Assembly (NCBI GenBank): GCA_007693385.1
Contig: REDR01000094.1
Coordinates: 1-47,648 of the forward strand
Direction: 5' to 3'
From: Anaerolineaceae bacterium
Lineage (GTDB): Bacteria > Chloroflexota > Anaerolineae > Aggregatilineales > Phototrophicaceae
Length of the DNA: 47,648 bases
Shown here in pieces: positions 1 through 28,902 of this stretch. The position numbers were made by a program, and so were the translations under genes. Below the pieces are notes generated by a model that was not told where the DNA came from, made no database searches, and saw only the letters and a list, made by a program, of their open reading frames with translations. Numbering within the stretch: position 1 is the stretch's first letter; the number at the start of each line of letters is the position of its first letter.

Positions 1-47
1 GCCACAATGTCTGAAATGACGTTGGTATCCAGTACAAAAACGCTCAT
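1..47 (-). CDS. VapC-like PIN-domain toxin, N-terminal fragment
   Basis: Only the first 15 codons are in the window (the gene runs off the left edge). They read MSVFVLDTNVISDIV, which matches the start of PIN-domain ribonucleases, where the first conserved acidic residue sits in the VLDTNV motif (Asp7 here) and helps bind the catalytic metal. The ATG overlaps the TGA of the upstream antitoxin gene as ATGA, so the two are translationally coupled, as is normal for type II toxin-antitoxin pairs. Family assignment rests on this short motif plus the coupled small acidic gene. Confidence 0.7.
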   Translation of the reverse strand, partial: MSVFVLDTNVISDIV

Positions 48-22238: not shown

Positions 22239-23162
22239 TTAGGCGCGGAACACGCTCCGCACGAAGAACCACAGATTCGCCGGACGCTCGGCCAGCCGTC
22301 GCATGAAATACGGATACCACGCTTCACCGAACGGCACATAAACGCGCATACGATGGCCGTCGGCGGCTAACTGGTGATGGCGGGCGGTGCGGATGCCATA
22401 AAGCATCTGGAACTCGTAGCCATCACGCGGGACGTTATGCGCGGCGATGTATTCCAGCGCGGCGGCGATCATCTGCTCGTCATGTGTGGCGATGTCCAGA
22501 TAAGCGGGCGGGGTGTGCGCCAGAAACTCGCGCATGATGGCGATGAATTGCGCGTCTACGTCGCGTTTGTCGGGGTAGGCGACGCTTTCCGGCTCCAGAT
22601 ACGCGCCCTTCACCAGCCGGATGCGGGCACCCTCCGCCGCGAATTGGCGCATGTCGTCCGCCGTGCGGCGGAGCATGGATTGTGTCACGGTGGCGACGTT
22701 ATCAAAGCCGTGTTCATCGCGCAGTTGCCGGTACATGCGGAACGTCGTCTCGACATACGCGCTACTCTCGGTGTCGATGTTGACGCTGATGCCGTGCGGT
22801 TGCGCGGCGGCTAGAATCTGCCGGAGGTTGTCGAAGCACAGCGACTCGCTGATGTCGAGGCCGAGATGGGTGAGCTTCAGCGATAGGCTGGCGTCCAGCC
22901 CGCCCGCGTTGATCTGCTCGATGAGGCGGCAATACATGGCGACGACGGCTGATGTGTCGTCGGCGTCGGTCACGCTTTCGCCTAGATAGTCCAGCGTGAC
23001 GCACAGCCCCGCCGCGTTCAGTTCCCGTGCGGTGTCGATGGCTTCCGCCAGCGTCTCACCGGCGATGAAGCGCCGCGCCACCCGTCGGGCGATGAAGAAG
23101 CGCGACACCAGCGCCCGCGCCCATCCCGCACCGGATAAGTACAGCAGAATCCGTCGTAACAT
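22239..23162 (-). CDS. putA: Proline dehydrogenase (monofunctional PutA/PRODH)
   Basis: 307 residues, standard for the single-domain FAD enzyme that oxidises proline to pyrroline-5-carboxylate and passes electrons to the quinone pool. Motifs: SLKLTHLGLD, RIRLVKGAY, ATHDEQMI, and the C-terminal EFQMLYGIR and RVYVPFGEAWYPYFMRRLAERPAN with the arginines that hold the proline carboxylate. AAAGGA precedes the ATG. No P5C dehydrogenase gene is next to it. It lies downstream of lexA in the same direction, behind a hairpin, so is probably a separate unit. Confidence 0.94.
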   Translation of the reverse strand: MLRRILLYLSGAGWARALVSRFFIARRVARRFIAGETLAEAIDTARELNAAGLCVTLDYLGESVTDADDTSAVVAMYCRLIEQINAGGLDASLSLKLTHLGLDISESLCFDNLRQILAAAQPHGISVNIDTESSAYVETTFRMYRQLRDEHGFDNVATVTQSMLRRTADDMRQFAAEGARIRLVKGAYLEPESVAYPDKRDVDAQFIAIMREFLAHTPPAYLDIATHDEQMIAAALEYIAAHNVPRDGYEFQMLYGIRTARHHQLAADGHRMRVYVPFGEAWYPYFMRRLAERPANLWFFVRSVFRA

Positions 23163-23245: not shown

Positions 23246-23926
23246 CTAATCGACGCGGCGTACCACACATAGCACTTTGCCCTGAACGCGGCAATCCGTC
23301 CCTTGCACGTAGATCGGCTCCATCGTCGGGTGTGCCGGTTGCAGGCGCACGCGCATCCCCTCCTGATAAAAATATTTGAGCGTCGTCTCTTCACGATCCG
23401 TCAGCCAGACCGCCACCATGTCGCCGTTTTGCGCGGTGTCGGTATGGCGCAGGACGACAATATCGCCATCTTGAATCATCGCGTCGGTCATGGAGTCGCC
23501 ACTGACGCGCAGGGCGTAGGTCTCCGTCGGGTTAACCCCGCCCAGAAACGAACGCGGAATTTCCAGCATGTTTTCTTCGTCGGCGTAGGCTGTTTCCGGA
23601 ATATGGATCGGCTCTCCGGCGACGATCTGCCCGATTAACGGCACACCCGGAAAGCGCTCCGCGCCTTTTTCTGATTTGCGAACGCTGTTGCGTCCGTTGG
23701 GGATGGCGCGTACCAGACGCAGGCCGCGTGCTTTGGAATCACTGCGCTCGATGAAGCCATGCTCGACCAGCTTATTCAGATTGTAGTTGACGACAGATGT
23801 CGAGAAGATGTCGGTGGCTTCGCCGATTTCGCGGATAGTGGGGGGATAGCCGTATTCATCGAAGTAGCGATCCATAAAACGCAGGATGTTACGTTGTCTC
23901 TCGGATAATTTGCTAAAACTTTTCAT
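23246..23926 (-). CDS. lexA: LexA, SOS repressor and self-cleaving protease
   Basis: 226 residues. Winged helix at 1-70 (LSERQRNILRFMDRYFDEYG, PPTIREIGEATD) and a peptidase S24 domain at 95-226. Self-cleavage site Ala103-Gly104 in IVAGEPI, catalytic Ser145 in VSGDSM and Lys184 in TTLKYF. RecA filaments on single-stranded DNA trigger cleavage and derepression of repair genes. The recognition-helix region (STSVVNYNLNKL) differs from E. coli, and the operator type found upstream is GAAC-N4-GTTC. GAAGG lies nine bases before the ATG. Confidence 0.97.
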   Translation of the reverse strand: MKSFSKLSERQRNILRFMDRYFDEYGYPPTIREIGEATDIFSTSVVNYNLNKLVEHGFIERSDSKARGLRLVRAIPNGRNSVRKSEKGAERFPGVPLIGQIVAGEPIHIPETAYADEENMLEIPRSFLGGVNPTETYALRVSGDSMTDAMIQDGDIVVLRHTDTAQNGDMVAVWLTDREETTLKYFYQEGMRVRLQPAHPTMEPIYVQGTDCRVQGKVLCVVRRVD

Positions 23927-23996: not shown

Positions 23997-24043
23997 ATAC
24001 GCCGACATAGGCGGGAGCGCAACGAATTGCGCCCCCTGTTCGT

Positions 24044-24334
24044 TCATTCGCTTTCGCCGGTATGCGCGGCGATCAGCGCGTTCATCCTGTCGGCGACCAG
24101 CTTCTCAGCCTCGCCCGGCTCGGCATGGCGGCCTAGTGCCTTCTTGTCGAACAATACTTCCCCGTTGACTGTGACCTTAAAGACGCCACCGCTACCGACA
24201 ACCAGCTTTAATGAGCCGATATATGCTTCTAGCTCACGCTGTTTCAGAATTGTGTCCGCCAAACTGACGGCTCTTTCGGTGTGGCTTCAAGGCCCACAAT
24301 ATTCGATGATGATGTCGATGAATCCATCTTGCAT
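24044..24334 (-). CDS. SelW/Rdx-family selenoprotein with in-frame TGA (Sec16)
   Basis: Read from the ATG at 24334 (AAGGAG seven bases upstream) the frame gives MQDGFIDIIIEYCGP, then TGA at 24289-24287, then SHTERAVSLADTILKQREL and the rest of an Rdx/SelW protein, 96 residues including selenocysteine. Cys13-Gly-Pro-Sec16 is the CXXU redox motif of SelW, placed after the first beta strand as in the family; SGGVFKVTVNGEVLFDKKALGR is the conserved core. Without the TGA read-through the protein would start at an unsupported TTG and lack its active site. A SECIS-like hairpin follows the TGA at the right distance. The thioredoxin-like fold probably serves thiol/peroxide redox chemistry. Alternatives: pseudogene or an error changing TGT/TGC to TGA. 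Confidence 0.85.
24256..24270 (-). promoter_or_regulatory. Bacterial SECIS-like hairpin
   Basis: In the mRNA CCGUC (24270-24266) pairs with GGCGG (24260-24256), one U-G, around the loop AGUUU. The loop G is the second loop base and lies 22-23 bases after the UGA. This fits the described bacterial SECIS pattern (short stem, G in the first two loop bases, 16-37 bases after UGA), which recruits SelB with Sec-tRNA. Confidence 0.7.
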
Positions 24335-24365
24335 GATCTGTCTCCTTTTTGTGGACGGTCATCTA

Positions 24366-24603: not shown

Positions 24604-27600
24604 GTGAAAGATTATACTGAACGTATACAACAGCTACAGATTTCACTCGCCACCGCGCTGACGTTTATATTGGCATTATTGACGGCTTATGCGCTGTTGC
24701 AGGCGAACGGTGTGCAGATGGGTGATTGGCGCACGTCGTCTTTCATCGCGTGGGGGGTTTGTCTGGTGGCTTACGCGCTATCGGAACGGCTGGCCGGTGA
24801 TATCGAAGGCGGCCTGTGGGCGGGTTATCTGCTGTTCTTCGGCATGGTGGTCATGCTGATCTTCGGCTGGGTGGCCTCCATGTTGATGATCTTGTTGGGC
24901 ACGGCGACCATTCGCTTTTTGTATTCGCGCTGGATGCCATTGGCTGGCAGTCGCCTGACCGCACAACAGGCATACAATACCGCTTATAAGCGTATCGCCA
25001 TTGTCGGCTGGTCGGTGTCCGGCGGGGCGTTGCTGTTGCATCTGGCGACGGCGGGGCGCAATGATTGGCACGCGGAAATCCTGCTGACGCTGGTCATCTG
25101 TGTGCTGTGTCTGGGGCTGACGCAATTGATCGGCCTGTTGCTGGTCGCCACACCACAAAATGACGTGCGCGGCTTCTTGCATCCCAACCAGTACCGCCGC
25201 CTGCCCGGTGAGGTGGTTCTGCTGGCGCTGATTATCCCGCTTGCGCTGGTTTACCGTGAGAACGGCGCGGTACTATTCGGCGCGGTGATCGGCATTCTGG
25301 CGGCGCAAGCCATCCGCCATCAGCAAATCGTCATGACAGAGGATGCCCTGCGGCGGCGCATCGCGGAATTGTCGATTATCAGCGATGTCAGCCAGCGCAT
25401 GAACGCCAGCCTTGTCACCGATGAGCTATATAATCGTCTGGCGGATTGGGCGTGCCAGATGAATTTTAACGCCTTCTTCATCGCGCTATCGGACGCCAGC
25501 AAGCACATCAGCTATCCACTCATCACGCGGGCGGCGCGGCGCTTTGACCAGAACACGCAACCGTTCAGCGATGACCACTTCCTGCATCAGATTATCCGGC
25601 AACACGGCGCGATCAACGGCGACATCGTGCCGACTTCGGAGCGCGTCACCGACGACGCCGGACGGCCTGCGCGGTTGTATCGCCTGCCGCTACAGGTGGG
25701 CGATAAGTCCGTCGGCTTGCTGGTCATCGTCGAGACGCTGACCGACGACGCGCCATCGTTAGGCCAATCCGCTTCGGAGGCGCTGGCGACACAAATCGGG
25801 CTATCCATCCGCAACGCGACATTATACGGGCGCACCGTCAAGCTGGCCGAAAGCCTGCAATACATCAATCATTCGGTGCAGGATGTACTATTCAATGCCG
25901 ACCAGCAAGGCGCGATTGACACCGCCTGTCATACGGTGATGACGGTGACCGCCGCTGTTGGCGCGGCGATCTTCACGCGGCAAGATGGCAAATTACGCTT
26001 CAACGCCGCTTTCGGCCTGACCGCCGCACATCGCCAGCACTATCAGGAAGGCCGCCACCTGCCTATCGTGCAGGACGCCGCGCTATTCTACCATGATCTG
26101 CGCCTTGTCGAGATGTCCACGCCGTACCACGCGCTGATGACCGACGGCGAATTCGTCGCGGTGGCGCAGGTGCCTTTGATGTCGGCGCATAACATCACCG
26201 GCTTGATGGTTGTCTTTCATGCCGAGCCGCATCTGTACCACGATGCCGAGCGCGAATTGCTGGGCACGGTGGCGCATCAACTGGTCACGGCGATGGACAA
26301 CGCCTATTTGCTGACCACGCTGGAGAGTTACGCGCTGGAGCAGACCCAGCTATTGCATCTGTCGCGCATGTCGTCGTCCAGCCTTGATTTAGAGAATATG
26401 GTGATGGCGGTGGTGCGCGTCGTCCAGCACATGCTCCGCGTGAAATGGGTGGGCATCGGGCTGATGGCGGACGACGGCGAATCGGTGCAGTTATACCACG
26501 TTGACTCGCCACATCCGCAAATAATCCCGCTTGCACGGTGGCCGGAACTCGATGCCGCCTGCAAGCTGGGCGATACCACCTTCATCACCATTGAACGCGC
26601 CGACAACGGCCTATCACACAATATGCGCGATTGGCTTCACGCGCAGAAGTTGGAATCGCTGGGCGCGATGGTGATGCGCGTCGATGAGCGCACGGTGGGC
26701 GTGCTGTTGCTGGGGCAGGCTTTCCGCTATCGCTTCACCGATAGCGAAGCCCGCCTGCTGGAAGTCGCCCGTAACCAGATCGCCACGCAGGTTTATAACG
26801 CGCTACAGTATCGCCAGACGCAAGAATCGCTGACCTTGCGCTTGCAACAACTGGGCTTGATCGAGAGCATCGCGCAACAGATGGCCGGTGCGCTCAACAT
26901 TGAATCGCTGACGCGCAGTTTGTTACAGGCGTCCTTGCATGTGACGATGGCTGATATGGCGGCGCTGTCTCTGCTGACTAAAGCTGGTGATGTACAGGTG
27001 ATGATGCTTCAAGTTGAGCCGGGCGCTAACGAGCCGATATTTACCAACGTCCACCGGATGCCGTCCGGCGGTACGGTGTTGGAGGTATTCGACACCGGCC
27101 AGACGTTGCTCATACCGGACAACAGCAAGCACGCCGCATATATTGACGCGCTGGGGCGCACGTATCACTCGTCGCTGGTGTTGCCGTTGATTCACAATGA
27201 TGTGGTGATCGGCGTGCTGAATCTGGAAAGCGACAGACACGACTATTTCAGCTACGATCAGGCGACGTTCCTCAGCAGTCTGGCCGGGCACGCCGTCGTC
27301 AGCATCCAGAACACCTATTTGTTGCAGGAACGGCAAGACCAGATCGAGATGCTGGACGCATTGCGGGCGCTCTCGGTGCGGTTGTCGGTTGAACTCAACG
27401 AAGAAGTCGCGTTGAAAGCGATCCTCAAGACCGCGATGGATGTCTTGCGCGGTCATGCGGTGGTGCTGGTACATTTTGACCGCGACGACGAGACGTTCAG
27501 CACGCACATGACGCTAGGCCGCGATGCTTATGTGCGCGTCCTCAATGACTACATCACGTTTGTCGCGCTGGAATCCATCTATACCGGCGAAGTGACCATC

Positions 27601-28902
27601 CAGACGTATGAAGATGATCCGTCGTGCCGGGCGGTGATCGCCATTCCGGTTAAAGCGGACGACAAAGTGCATCTGCTGGGGGTGATGACCCCGGATTGGC
27701 CGCGTGATAACGACCTGAACACCGCGACGTTAATCGGCATTCAGGCGGTGGCTTATCTGCAAAATGTCGCGCTTCATCATCGCATCCGCGCCCAGAATAG
27801 CCGGATGCAGACTATTCTCGACTCGGTGCAGGATGGCTTGATCCTGTTCCACCCGTCCGGCGTGATTATCGACGTGAACAACAGCGCTTCTAACTTGCTC
27901 GGCGTCGATTTGCACGGTTACGTCGGGCGTCCGGTGGATGGCGAGTTGCTGGCGTTCGTGCAGAGGAATACGCCGTCGGGCAGATCGCCGGAGTTGCCGA
28001 CTTTGCTACAGACGATAGCCACCCACCTGCGTGATCGCTCCGGTGGCGTTGTGGCCGGTGCGATGGAGGTCTGGCGGCCAGATGGCACGCGCTATCTGCA
28101 CCATGTTAGCGCCCCGGTGCTGGATGGTCAGGGCGGGTTCGCCGGACGCTTGCTGGCGCTCCGCGACGTGACGGAGTCGCAACAACTGGCCGCCTACCGT
28201 GACGAAATCGCCAGTATGGTTGTGCATGATTTGCGCGGGCCGCTTGGCTCGGTCATCACCAGTCTGGACGTTCTACGCGAATGCATCGTAGAAGGCGGTG
28301 ACCTGCAAGACGCGCTGGAATTGCTGGGGTTGTTGACCAATAGCGGCAACCGGATGCTCAATCTGGTCAATACGTTGCTGGATGTCTCCAAGCTGGAACA
28401 GCGCCGCATGATGATTGATCCGGTGCGGGCGTCGCTGGCGGACATGGTGCGCGAGGCGCTGGATTCGCTGAAGGGCTGGATTGACGAGGGCAATCTGACC
28501 GTCAACATCGACATCCCGCCGGATTTGCCCGATGTGTTCGCCGATGCCGGTAAGATTCAGCGCGTGCTGATTAATCTGCTGGATAACGCGATGCGCTACG
28601 CGCCGGACGACGGCGAAGTGCTGGTGCGGGCGATGTCCGATGACGGCAAAATTCGCGTGCTGGTGGCCGATAGCGGTAACGGCATTCCCGAAGACAAGGC
28701 GACGCACGTCTTCGGAAAATTCGTGCAGGGCGATTCCGACCACGAAATGCAACGGCGCGGTCAACGCGGTAGCGGACTCGGCCTGACCTATTGCTATCTG
28801 GCGCTGGACGCACACGGCGAAAAAATCTGGATTGACCACCAGAATAGCCCGTTACGCGGCGCGTGCTTCGTGTTCAAGTTGCCGCAATATGTCGCTGATT
28901 GA
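24604..28902 (+). CDS. Giant membrane sensor histidine kinase, multi-GAF/PAS
   Basis: 1432 residues, GTG start. Seven to eight TM segments within 12-240 form a membrane sensor; then about five GAF-type domains in tandem (from about 255 to 1100; for example LAESLQYINHSV, QQMAGALNIESL, and LRALSVRLSVELNEE starts), a PAS domain at about 1130-1200 (ILDSVQDGLILFHPSG), HisKA with phospho-acceptor His1208 in VVHDLRGPLG, and a HATPase_c domain (N box INLLDNAMRYAP, G boxes VADSGNGIPED and GSGLGLTY). No receiver domain. GAF domains bind cyclic nucleotides, haem or small ligands; the signal is unknown. Tandem with a second kinase 64 bases downstream that has the same plan; no response regulator nearby. 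Confidence 0.95.
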   Translation: MKDYTERIQQLQISLATALTFILALLTAYALLQANGVQMGDWRTSSFIAWGVCLVAYALSERLAGDIEGGLWAGYLLFFGMVVMLIFGWVASMLMILLGTATIRFLYSRWMPLAGSRLTAQQAYNTAYKRIAIVGWSVSGGALLLHLATAGRNDWHAEILLTLVICVLCLGLTQLIGLLLVATPQNDVRGFLHPNQYRRLPGEVVLLALIIPLALVYRENGAVLFGAVIGILAAQAIRHQQIVMTEDALRRRIAELSIISDVSQRMNASLVTDELYNRLADWACQMNFNAFFIALSDASKHISYPLITRAARRFDQNTQPFSDDHFLHQIIRQHGAINGDIVPTSERVTDDAGRPARLYRLPLQVGDKSVGLLVIVETLTDDAPSLGQSASEALATQIGLSIRNATLYGRTVKLAESLQYINHSVQDVLFNADQQGAIDTACHTVMTVTAAVGAAIFTRQDGKLRFNAAFGLTAAHRQHYQEGRHLPIVQDAALFYHDLRLVEMSTPYHALMTDGEFVAVAQVPLMSAHNITGLMVVFHAEPHLYHDAERELLGTVAHQLVTAMDNAYLLTTLESYALEQTQLLHLSRMSSSSLDLENMVMAVVRVVQHMLRVKWVGIGLMADDGESVQLYHVDSPHPQIIPLARWPELDAACKLGDTTFITIERADNGLSHNMRDWLHAQKLESLGAMVMRVDERTVGVLLLGQAFRYRFTDSEARLLEVARNQIATQVYNALQYRQTQESLTLRLQQLGLIESIAQQMAGALNIESLTRSLLQASLHVTMADMAALSLLTKAGDVQVMMLQVEPGANEPIFTNVHRMPSGGTVLEVFDTGQTLLIPDNSKHAAYIDALGRTYHSSLVLPLIHNDVVIGVLNLESDRHDYFSYDQATFLSSLAGHAVVSIQNTYLLQERQDQIEMLDALRALSVRLSVELNEEVALKAILKTAMDVLRGHAVVLVHFDRDDETFSTHMTLGRDAYVRVLNDYITFVALESIYTGEVTIQTYEDDPSCRAVIAIPVKADDKVHLLGVMTPDWPRDNDLNTATLIGIQAVAYLQNVALHHRIRAQNSRMQTILDSVQDGLILFHPSGVIIDVNNSASNLLGVDLHGYVGRPVDGELLAFVQRNTPSGRSPELPTLLQTIATHLRDRSGGVVAGAMEVWRPDGTRYLHHVSAPVLDGQGGFAGRLLALRDVTESQQLAAYRDEIASMVVHDLRGPLGSVITSLDVLRECIVEGGDLQDALELLGLLTNSGNRMLNLVNTLLDVSKLEQRRMMIDPVRASLADMVREALDSLKGWIDEGNLTVNIDIPPDLPDVFADAGKIQRVLINLLDNAMRYAPDDGEVLVRAMSDDGKIRVLVADSGNGIPEDKATHVFGKFVQGDSDHEMQRRGQRGSGLGLTYCYLALDAHGEKIWIDHQNSPLRGACFVFKLPQYVAD

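Follow-up and report, generated by a model that had tools for sequence, protein, structure and literature searches.

A predicted SelW-like selenoprotein with an in-frame TGA and a compact putative SECIS hairpin in an Anaerolineae genome

A small gene in the 47,648-nt window, the whole stretch of DNA analysed here, is predicted to encode a thioredoxin-like protein of the SelW/Rdx family whose second active-site residue is selenocysteine (Sec), inserted at an in-frame TGA by means of SelB and a hairpin. We put the probability of this explanation as a whole at about 0.97. From the conserved TGA, the hairpin, the Sec machinery, the homologues and the fold, we therefore conclude that the gene is very probably a genuine selenoprotein gene. 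The basis is computed: homology, fold prediction, the kept TGA, a covarying hairpin, the co-occurrence of the TGA form with the Sec machinery, and an orthologue (genome G012) that carries Cys in a genome without that machinery.

The mechanical open reading frame (ORF) caller gave just a 72-aa ORF here, starting at a TTG (24044..24262). The original prediction had followed the frame further upstream, across a TGA preceded by EYCGP and up to an ATG with an AAGGAG site, and had pointed out that TGA is used as a stop elsewhere in the window. All of these elements are present in the sequence (Table 1). Translation of the frame places EYCGP immediately 5' of the TGA at 24289-24287, and TGA ends 10 of the 26 non-overlapping mechanical ORFs of at least 200 aa in the window as well as the selW-like gene itself. 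The position of the ordinary start is a TTG codon in 21 of the 26 TGA-containing genes of the relatives set described below, and a weak AAAGAG precedes it in the window sequence. The 10 codons 5' of the TGA are under purifying selection, with a pN/pS of 0.36 versus 0.46 further downstream. Inspection by eye also found a 10-bp inverted repeat with a TTCG loop and no T run directly 3' of the stop codon (24013-24036), which is a possible mRNA end.

Table 1. Features of the selW-like locus, its neighbours and the selD TGA of the same genome
Feature	Position	Strand	Remarks
selW/rdx-like selenoprotein gene (predicted)	24334→24044	minus	96 codons + stop; TGA at codon 16 read as Sec (predicted)
AAGGAG ribosome-binding site	24342..24347	minus	from sequence; 7 nt 5' of the ATG
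ATG start	24334-24332	minus	from sequence; after AAGGAG
In-frame TGA, predicted Sec codon of the CGPU motif	24287..24289	minus	second active-site position; aligned TGA in relatives
Putative bacterial SECIS hairpin CCGUC-AGUUU-GGCGG	24256..24270	minus	+17..+31 after the TGA; from comparison and centroid
TTG, called start of the 72-aa ORF	24260..24262	minus	inside the hairpin; codes for Leu
Second TGA, ordinary stop at the gene end	24044..24046	minus	from sequence
lexA	23246-23926		next gene downstream of the selW-like gene
Proline dehydrogenase	22239-23162		neighbour
Multi-GAF/PAS sensor histidine kinase	24604-28902	divergent	neighbour
selD TGA, motif TCAGUASK	L017 1531-1533		same genome as the window

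Read through the TGA, the product matches PF10262 (Rdx) over residues 8-81 with an E-value of 5.9e-15 and about 55.6 bits against a cut-off of 22.6; the 72-aa TTG ORF alone matches Pfam Rdx at 1.2e-07 and 32.3 bits. NCBI also holds models for the SelW/Rdx family. TIGR02174 (CXXU_selWTH) scored 34.6, barely over its cut-off of 34.2, and the equivalog NF041051 (SelTWH_Campy) scored 60.1, under its cut-off of 88, and the protein is not filed there. The CxxC/CxxU motif of the family appears as C13-G-P-U16 after a strand at residues 6-13, and all 29 aligned sequences have Cys at position 13 and Cys or Sec (written C) at position 16.

The structure model, based on a 46-row alignment, has a mean pLDDT of 87 and a pTM of 0.77. 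Its main elements are, in order, a strand, a helix, three strands and a further helix, and there are two short helices in addition; Cys13 ends strand 1 and residue 16 lies just before helix 1. Foldseek against the PDB returned 22 chains at E <= 0.001 from seven entries, six of them bacterial and one mouse selenoprotein W (2npb), and a profile search of the PDB sequences returned the same seven together with MIEN1 (2ljk). The modelled fold is thioredoxin-like and of SelW type, and its best PDB matches are SelW-related. The bacterial Rdx structures (2fa8, 3dex, 2obk, 2oka, 2ojl and 2p0g) share the fold, a similar length and 26-38% identity. However, 2fa8 and 3dex carry CTQC in the profile search, with Cys where the window protein would have Sec, and 2obk, 2oka, 2ojl and 2p0g presumably have Cys there too. 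Mouse selenoprotein W resembles the model in fold, with E 2.2e-04, TMq 0.63 and 19% identity in Foldseek, and is also matched by the profile; its CxxU is at this position. The SelW/Rdx layout proposed from the sequence is thus supported by profile, solved-structure search and predicted fold, and the suggested alignment of the 96-residue read-through product with SelW/Rdx proteins found homologues with TGA and rarely Cys.

The source genome is a draft of 3.59 Mb in 137 contigs and is 96.85% complete. The original prediction had named selA, selB, selC (tRNA-Sec) and selD as the genes to look for, with absence of selB and tRNA-Sec from a complete genome taken to refute Sec insertion; all four were found. 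The tRNA-Sec scored 70.7 bits and was called SeC with anticodon tca by ARAGORN, selB reached 354.6 bits across positions 2-577 of 581, selA 542 bits, and selD, interrupted by a single TGA, 377.8 bits. A Sec-using Chloroflexota lineage, as had been supposed, is borne out by this full machinery and by named relatives that are mostly Anaerolineae/Chloroflexi.

We then compared the gene across 61 genomes, the source genome and 60 relatives, and a protein match was obtained in 28 of them. Thirty loci were read, a count that leaves out one weak match in G022 without a locus. TGA stands at the site in 26 of the 30, each in a separate genome with the source included and none with a further stop within the match. 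In the other four the codon is for Cys; G012 has one of these loci, G027 two, and G008 one that accompanies its TGA form. The loci in which Cys aligns with the in-frame TGA are L031 (the same case as L077, below) and L047-L049. selB was counted over its cut-off in 39 of the 61 genomes and tRNA-Sec in 40, the latter at a line of at least 59 bits that is our own; a G044 hit of 56.5 bits is uncertain and was counted absent, and hits under 59 bits probably represent tRNA-Ser, which is what ARAGORN reported for those in L002. Among the 26 TGA genomes, selB is present in 25, tRNA-Sec in 25 and at least one of them in all 26; the two genomes that lack one or the other have a completeness of 68% and 75%. 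Sec users without a SelW-like gene are common, because 15 of the remaining 35 genomes have selB or tRNA-Sec. The TGA form is associated with the Sec machinery at a Fisher p of 6.7e-07, with kinship ignored as in all statistics here. G012 and G027, which have Cys forms only, have neither selB nor tRNA-Sec.

A second set of named homologues consists of the best 80 of 236 relatives from a species-genome scan, picked by C-terminal patterns. Their labels are mostly Anaerolineae/Chloroflexi, with one Aggregatilineales and some Acidimicrobiia/Actinobacteria and Gemmatimonadales. Among these best 80 of 236, the codon at the site is TGA in 79 and Cys in one, Chloroflexi bacterium OLB13 (L077). When 15 of the 80 were checked (14 TGA, one Cys), selB was present over its cut-off in 13 and tRNA-Sec above 59 bits in 13; selB, tRNA-Sec or both occur in each of the 14 checked TGA genomes, and OLB13 has neither. 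OLB13 and G012 count as one case, not two, because their sequences agree, and other genomes too occur in both sets. In a phylum sample of 301 genomes including the source, 138 had a profile match. The 137 best matches listed comprise 92 with exactly one TGA, one with two TGA, four with TGA and another stop, 39 without a stop and one that starts after the motif; this tally records how many stops each match contains. A scan of viral_contigs gave 32 pattern matches with no relative among them.

TGA-containing SelW-like genes also occur in assemblies labelled as other phyla, namely L106 and L116 (Gemmatimonadales) and L107, L115, L120 and L126 (Acidimicrobiia or Actinobacteria). All six genomes have tRNA-Sec and five have selB over the cut-off (that of L116 does not). 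The hairpin retains 2 of 5 pairs in L120 and 4 of 5 in L106. Those labelled Gemmatimonadales or Acidimicrobiia, for which binning errors are possible, may mean that SelW-like selenoproteins are more widely distributed.

A hairpin with a G in its apical loop had been placed 22-23 bases after the TGA, and the comparison agrees: the stem pairs +17..21 with +27..31, the loop spans +22..+26, and the G is at +23 (24264). The accessible text of PMC1088965 describes an apical-loop G in bacterial SECIS elements, SelW-like ones included, and eukaryotic SECIS elements in the 3' UTR; by its downstream position and its loop G the hairpin is a putative SECIS of the bacterial kind. Folded as a single sequence, the region has an unremarkable energy (z +0.44; 132 of 200 shuffled sequences reach the same or a better energy), and the centroid is the 5-bp hairpin while the minimum free energy (MFE) structure is another. 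The support for the hairpin is therefore the comparison across genes. Over the 26 TGA-containing genes of the relatives set, the stem pairs in 129 of 130 cells, five of them changed on both sides, and sliding the register by 1 to 4 bases leaves 12-83 of the 130 paired. From the best 80 of 236, the 62 distinct named Chloroflexota sequences pair in 295 of 310 cells (22 changed on both sides) and the 16 sequences of other or unassigned groups in 56 of 80. All five pairs form in 63 of the 79 named TGA genes from these 80; the 16 without the full hairpin are six Chloroflexota and ten other or unassigned. Changed stems include CCACC/GGTGG (L085), CTATC/GATAG (L108) and CCATC/GATGG (L098). All 26 TGA genes from the relatives have the G at +23, and the loop is AGUUU in most of them. 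In the four Cys-form loci one to three of the five pairs remain, and the hairpin is not conserved there. Against a background of long ORFs in the relatives' flanks, Ser in the hairpin is AGT in 21 of 21 cases (background 0.098), Val is GTC in 25 of 25 (0.404) and Leu is TTG in 21 of 23 (0.153). Judged by these biases, codon choice follows the hairpin.

These results bear on three other explanations. If the TGA were a real stop, the product would be the 72-aa TTG ORF or the locus a decaying pseudogene; that ORF does exist, matches Rdx without the upstream part and has the weak AAAGAG ahead of it. We consider this very improbable. The same codon is TGA in the 26 of 30 loci, with no other stop, and in the 79 named loci of the best 80 of 236, the codons ahead of it are under purifying selection, and the TTG belongs to the hairpin; a start there would also leave the model without its active site, all of strand 1 and a portion of helix 1. 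Slighter still is the chance that TGA is recoded genome-wide or suppressed non-specifically to give Trp, Gly or another residue, for which we see nothing beyond the in-frame TGA itself. TGA stops long ORFs of the window and the selW-like gene, tRNA-Sec, selA, selB and selD are all present, and Cys is the one alternative to TGA at this codon (4 of 30 loci, and 1 of the best 80 of 236). A sequencing or assembly error turning TGT or TGC into TGA is conceivable in a draft of 137 contigs, but with homologous TGA in 79 of 80 named loci (best 80 of 236) from other assemblies and a covarying hairpin behind it, this is the least probable of the three.

For the preferred reading, Sec insertion at codon 16, the following sequence of events may be proposed. 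Translation would start at the ATG behind AAGGAG. SelB carrying Sec-tRNA-Sec would bind the hairpin just 3' of codon 16, the UGA of this codon would be read as Sec, and the second UGA, at the gene end, would terminate translation. In the product, Cys13-x-x-Sec16 would sit between strand 1 and helix 1, and the protein would act as a thiol/selenol oxidoreductase, an activity suggested by the modelled fold and the motif. We know of no established role of SelW in bacteria. The neighbours lexA, proline dehydrogenase and histidine kinase showed no link to selenium. In 49 of 111 entries (some genomes twice), a common same-strand downstream ORF appeared solute-binding-protein-like by eye, and the window is not among them; the window and the 111 entries compared gave no clue to function from gene neighbourhood.

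The SelD of the source genome is likely itself a selenoprotein, judging from its TGA-containing motif. A 7-bp hairpin, GGCGCAA/UUGCGCC, forms downstream of this TGA in the MFE structure, at approximately +27..+43. Thirty SelD loci including that of the source genome were fetched, with TGA in 22 and Cys in 8, further matches without a locus being left out; selB is over the cut-off in the genomes of 22 of 22 TGA forms versus 2 of 8 Cys forms. We also considered a hairpin shared between SelW and SelD. The source SelD has AGTTTG at +22..+27 with the stem absent, and AGTTTG is there in 0 of the 21 other fetched TGA SelD loci, so a shared element is not claimed. TIGR01591 (formate dehydrogenase alpha) stayed below its cut-off in the source genome with no stop inside the matches, and thus added no further selenoprotein. 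Stop-free selD matches occur in six relatives (G025, G042, G043, G053, G058 and G059) for which neither selB nor tRNA-Sec entered the count, which suggests another use of selenium there, e.g. selenouridine.

SelW-like selenoproteins are not new to bacteria. As far as its accessible text goes, a 2006 survey counted 10 of them, with few Cys forms among Sec users, and its Table 2 gives Chloroflexi three selenoproteins in three families, which that text leaves unnamed (PMC1794560). According to the available parts of PMC2398784, SelW-like proteins outnumber every other prokaryotic selenoprotein family in the GOS marine set, with 427 counted; those of the 2022 and 2026 reviews list SELENOW-like with PF10262 and CxxU (PMC9312934, PMC13188914). 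In the sections at hand, Chloroflexi are counted among Sec decoders (PMC5322559), and deep-sea Chloroflexi are credited with Sec-containing formate dehydrogenases (PMC5736913). The main text of PMC5029168 contains neither 'Chloroflexi' nor 'SelW', and we found no paper naming a SelW-like selenoprotein of Chloroflexota, which is weak evidence of absence as the literature covered was partial and without supplements. The novelty originally seen in a Sec-using Chloroflexota SelW must therefore be scaled down, with the family already listed and Chloroflexi already counted as Sec users. Like the genes of bacterial SELENOW-like selenoproteins, the selW-like gene has an in-frame TGA and encodes a small protein of the Rdx family whose CxxU lies close to the N-terminus; it differs in its Chloroflexota/Anaerolineae lineage and possibly in its short (5-bp/5-nt) hairpin. 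What is added to a known family and a known Sec trait is a SelW-like member in this lineage and a compact hairpin.

We tentatively suggest, at somewhat less than even odds, that the SelW of Anaerolineae has an unusually compact and nearly fixed SECIS (5-bp stem, mostly AGUUU loop at +22..+26) with a lineage-specific SelB, that its TGA form reliably predicts the machinery, and that in the G012/OLB13 branch the machinery is absent, Cys is present and the hairpin has been lost. This branch resembles a natural control for Sec versus Cys forms. The true start and the active site of the gene, both missing from the ordinary ORF, are now fixed, and the lineage is marked as dependent on selenium, its likely selenoproteins numbering at least two, the SelW-like protein and SelD.
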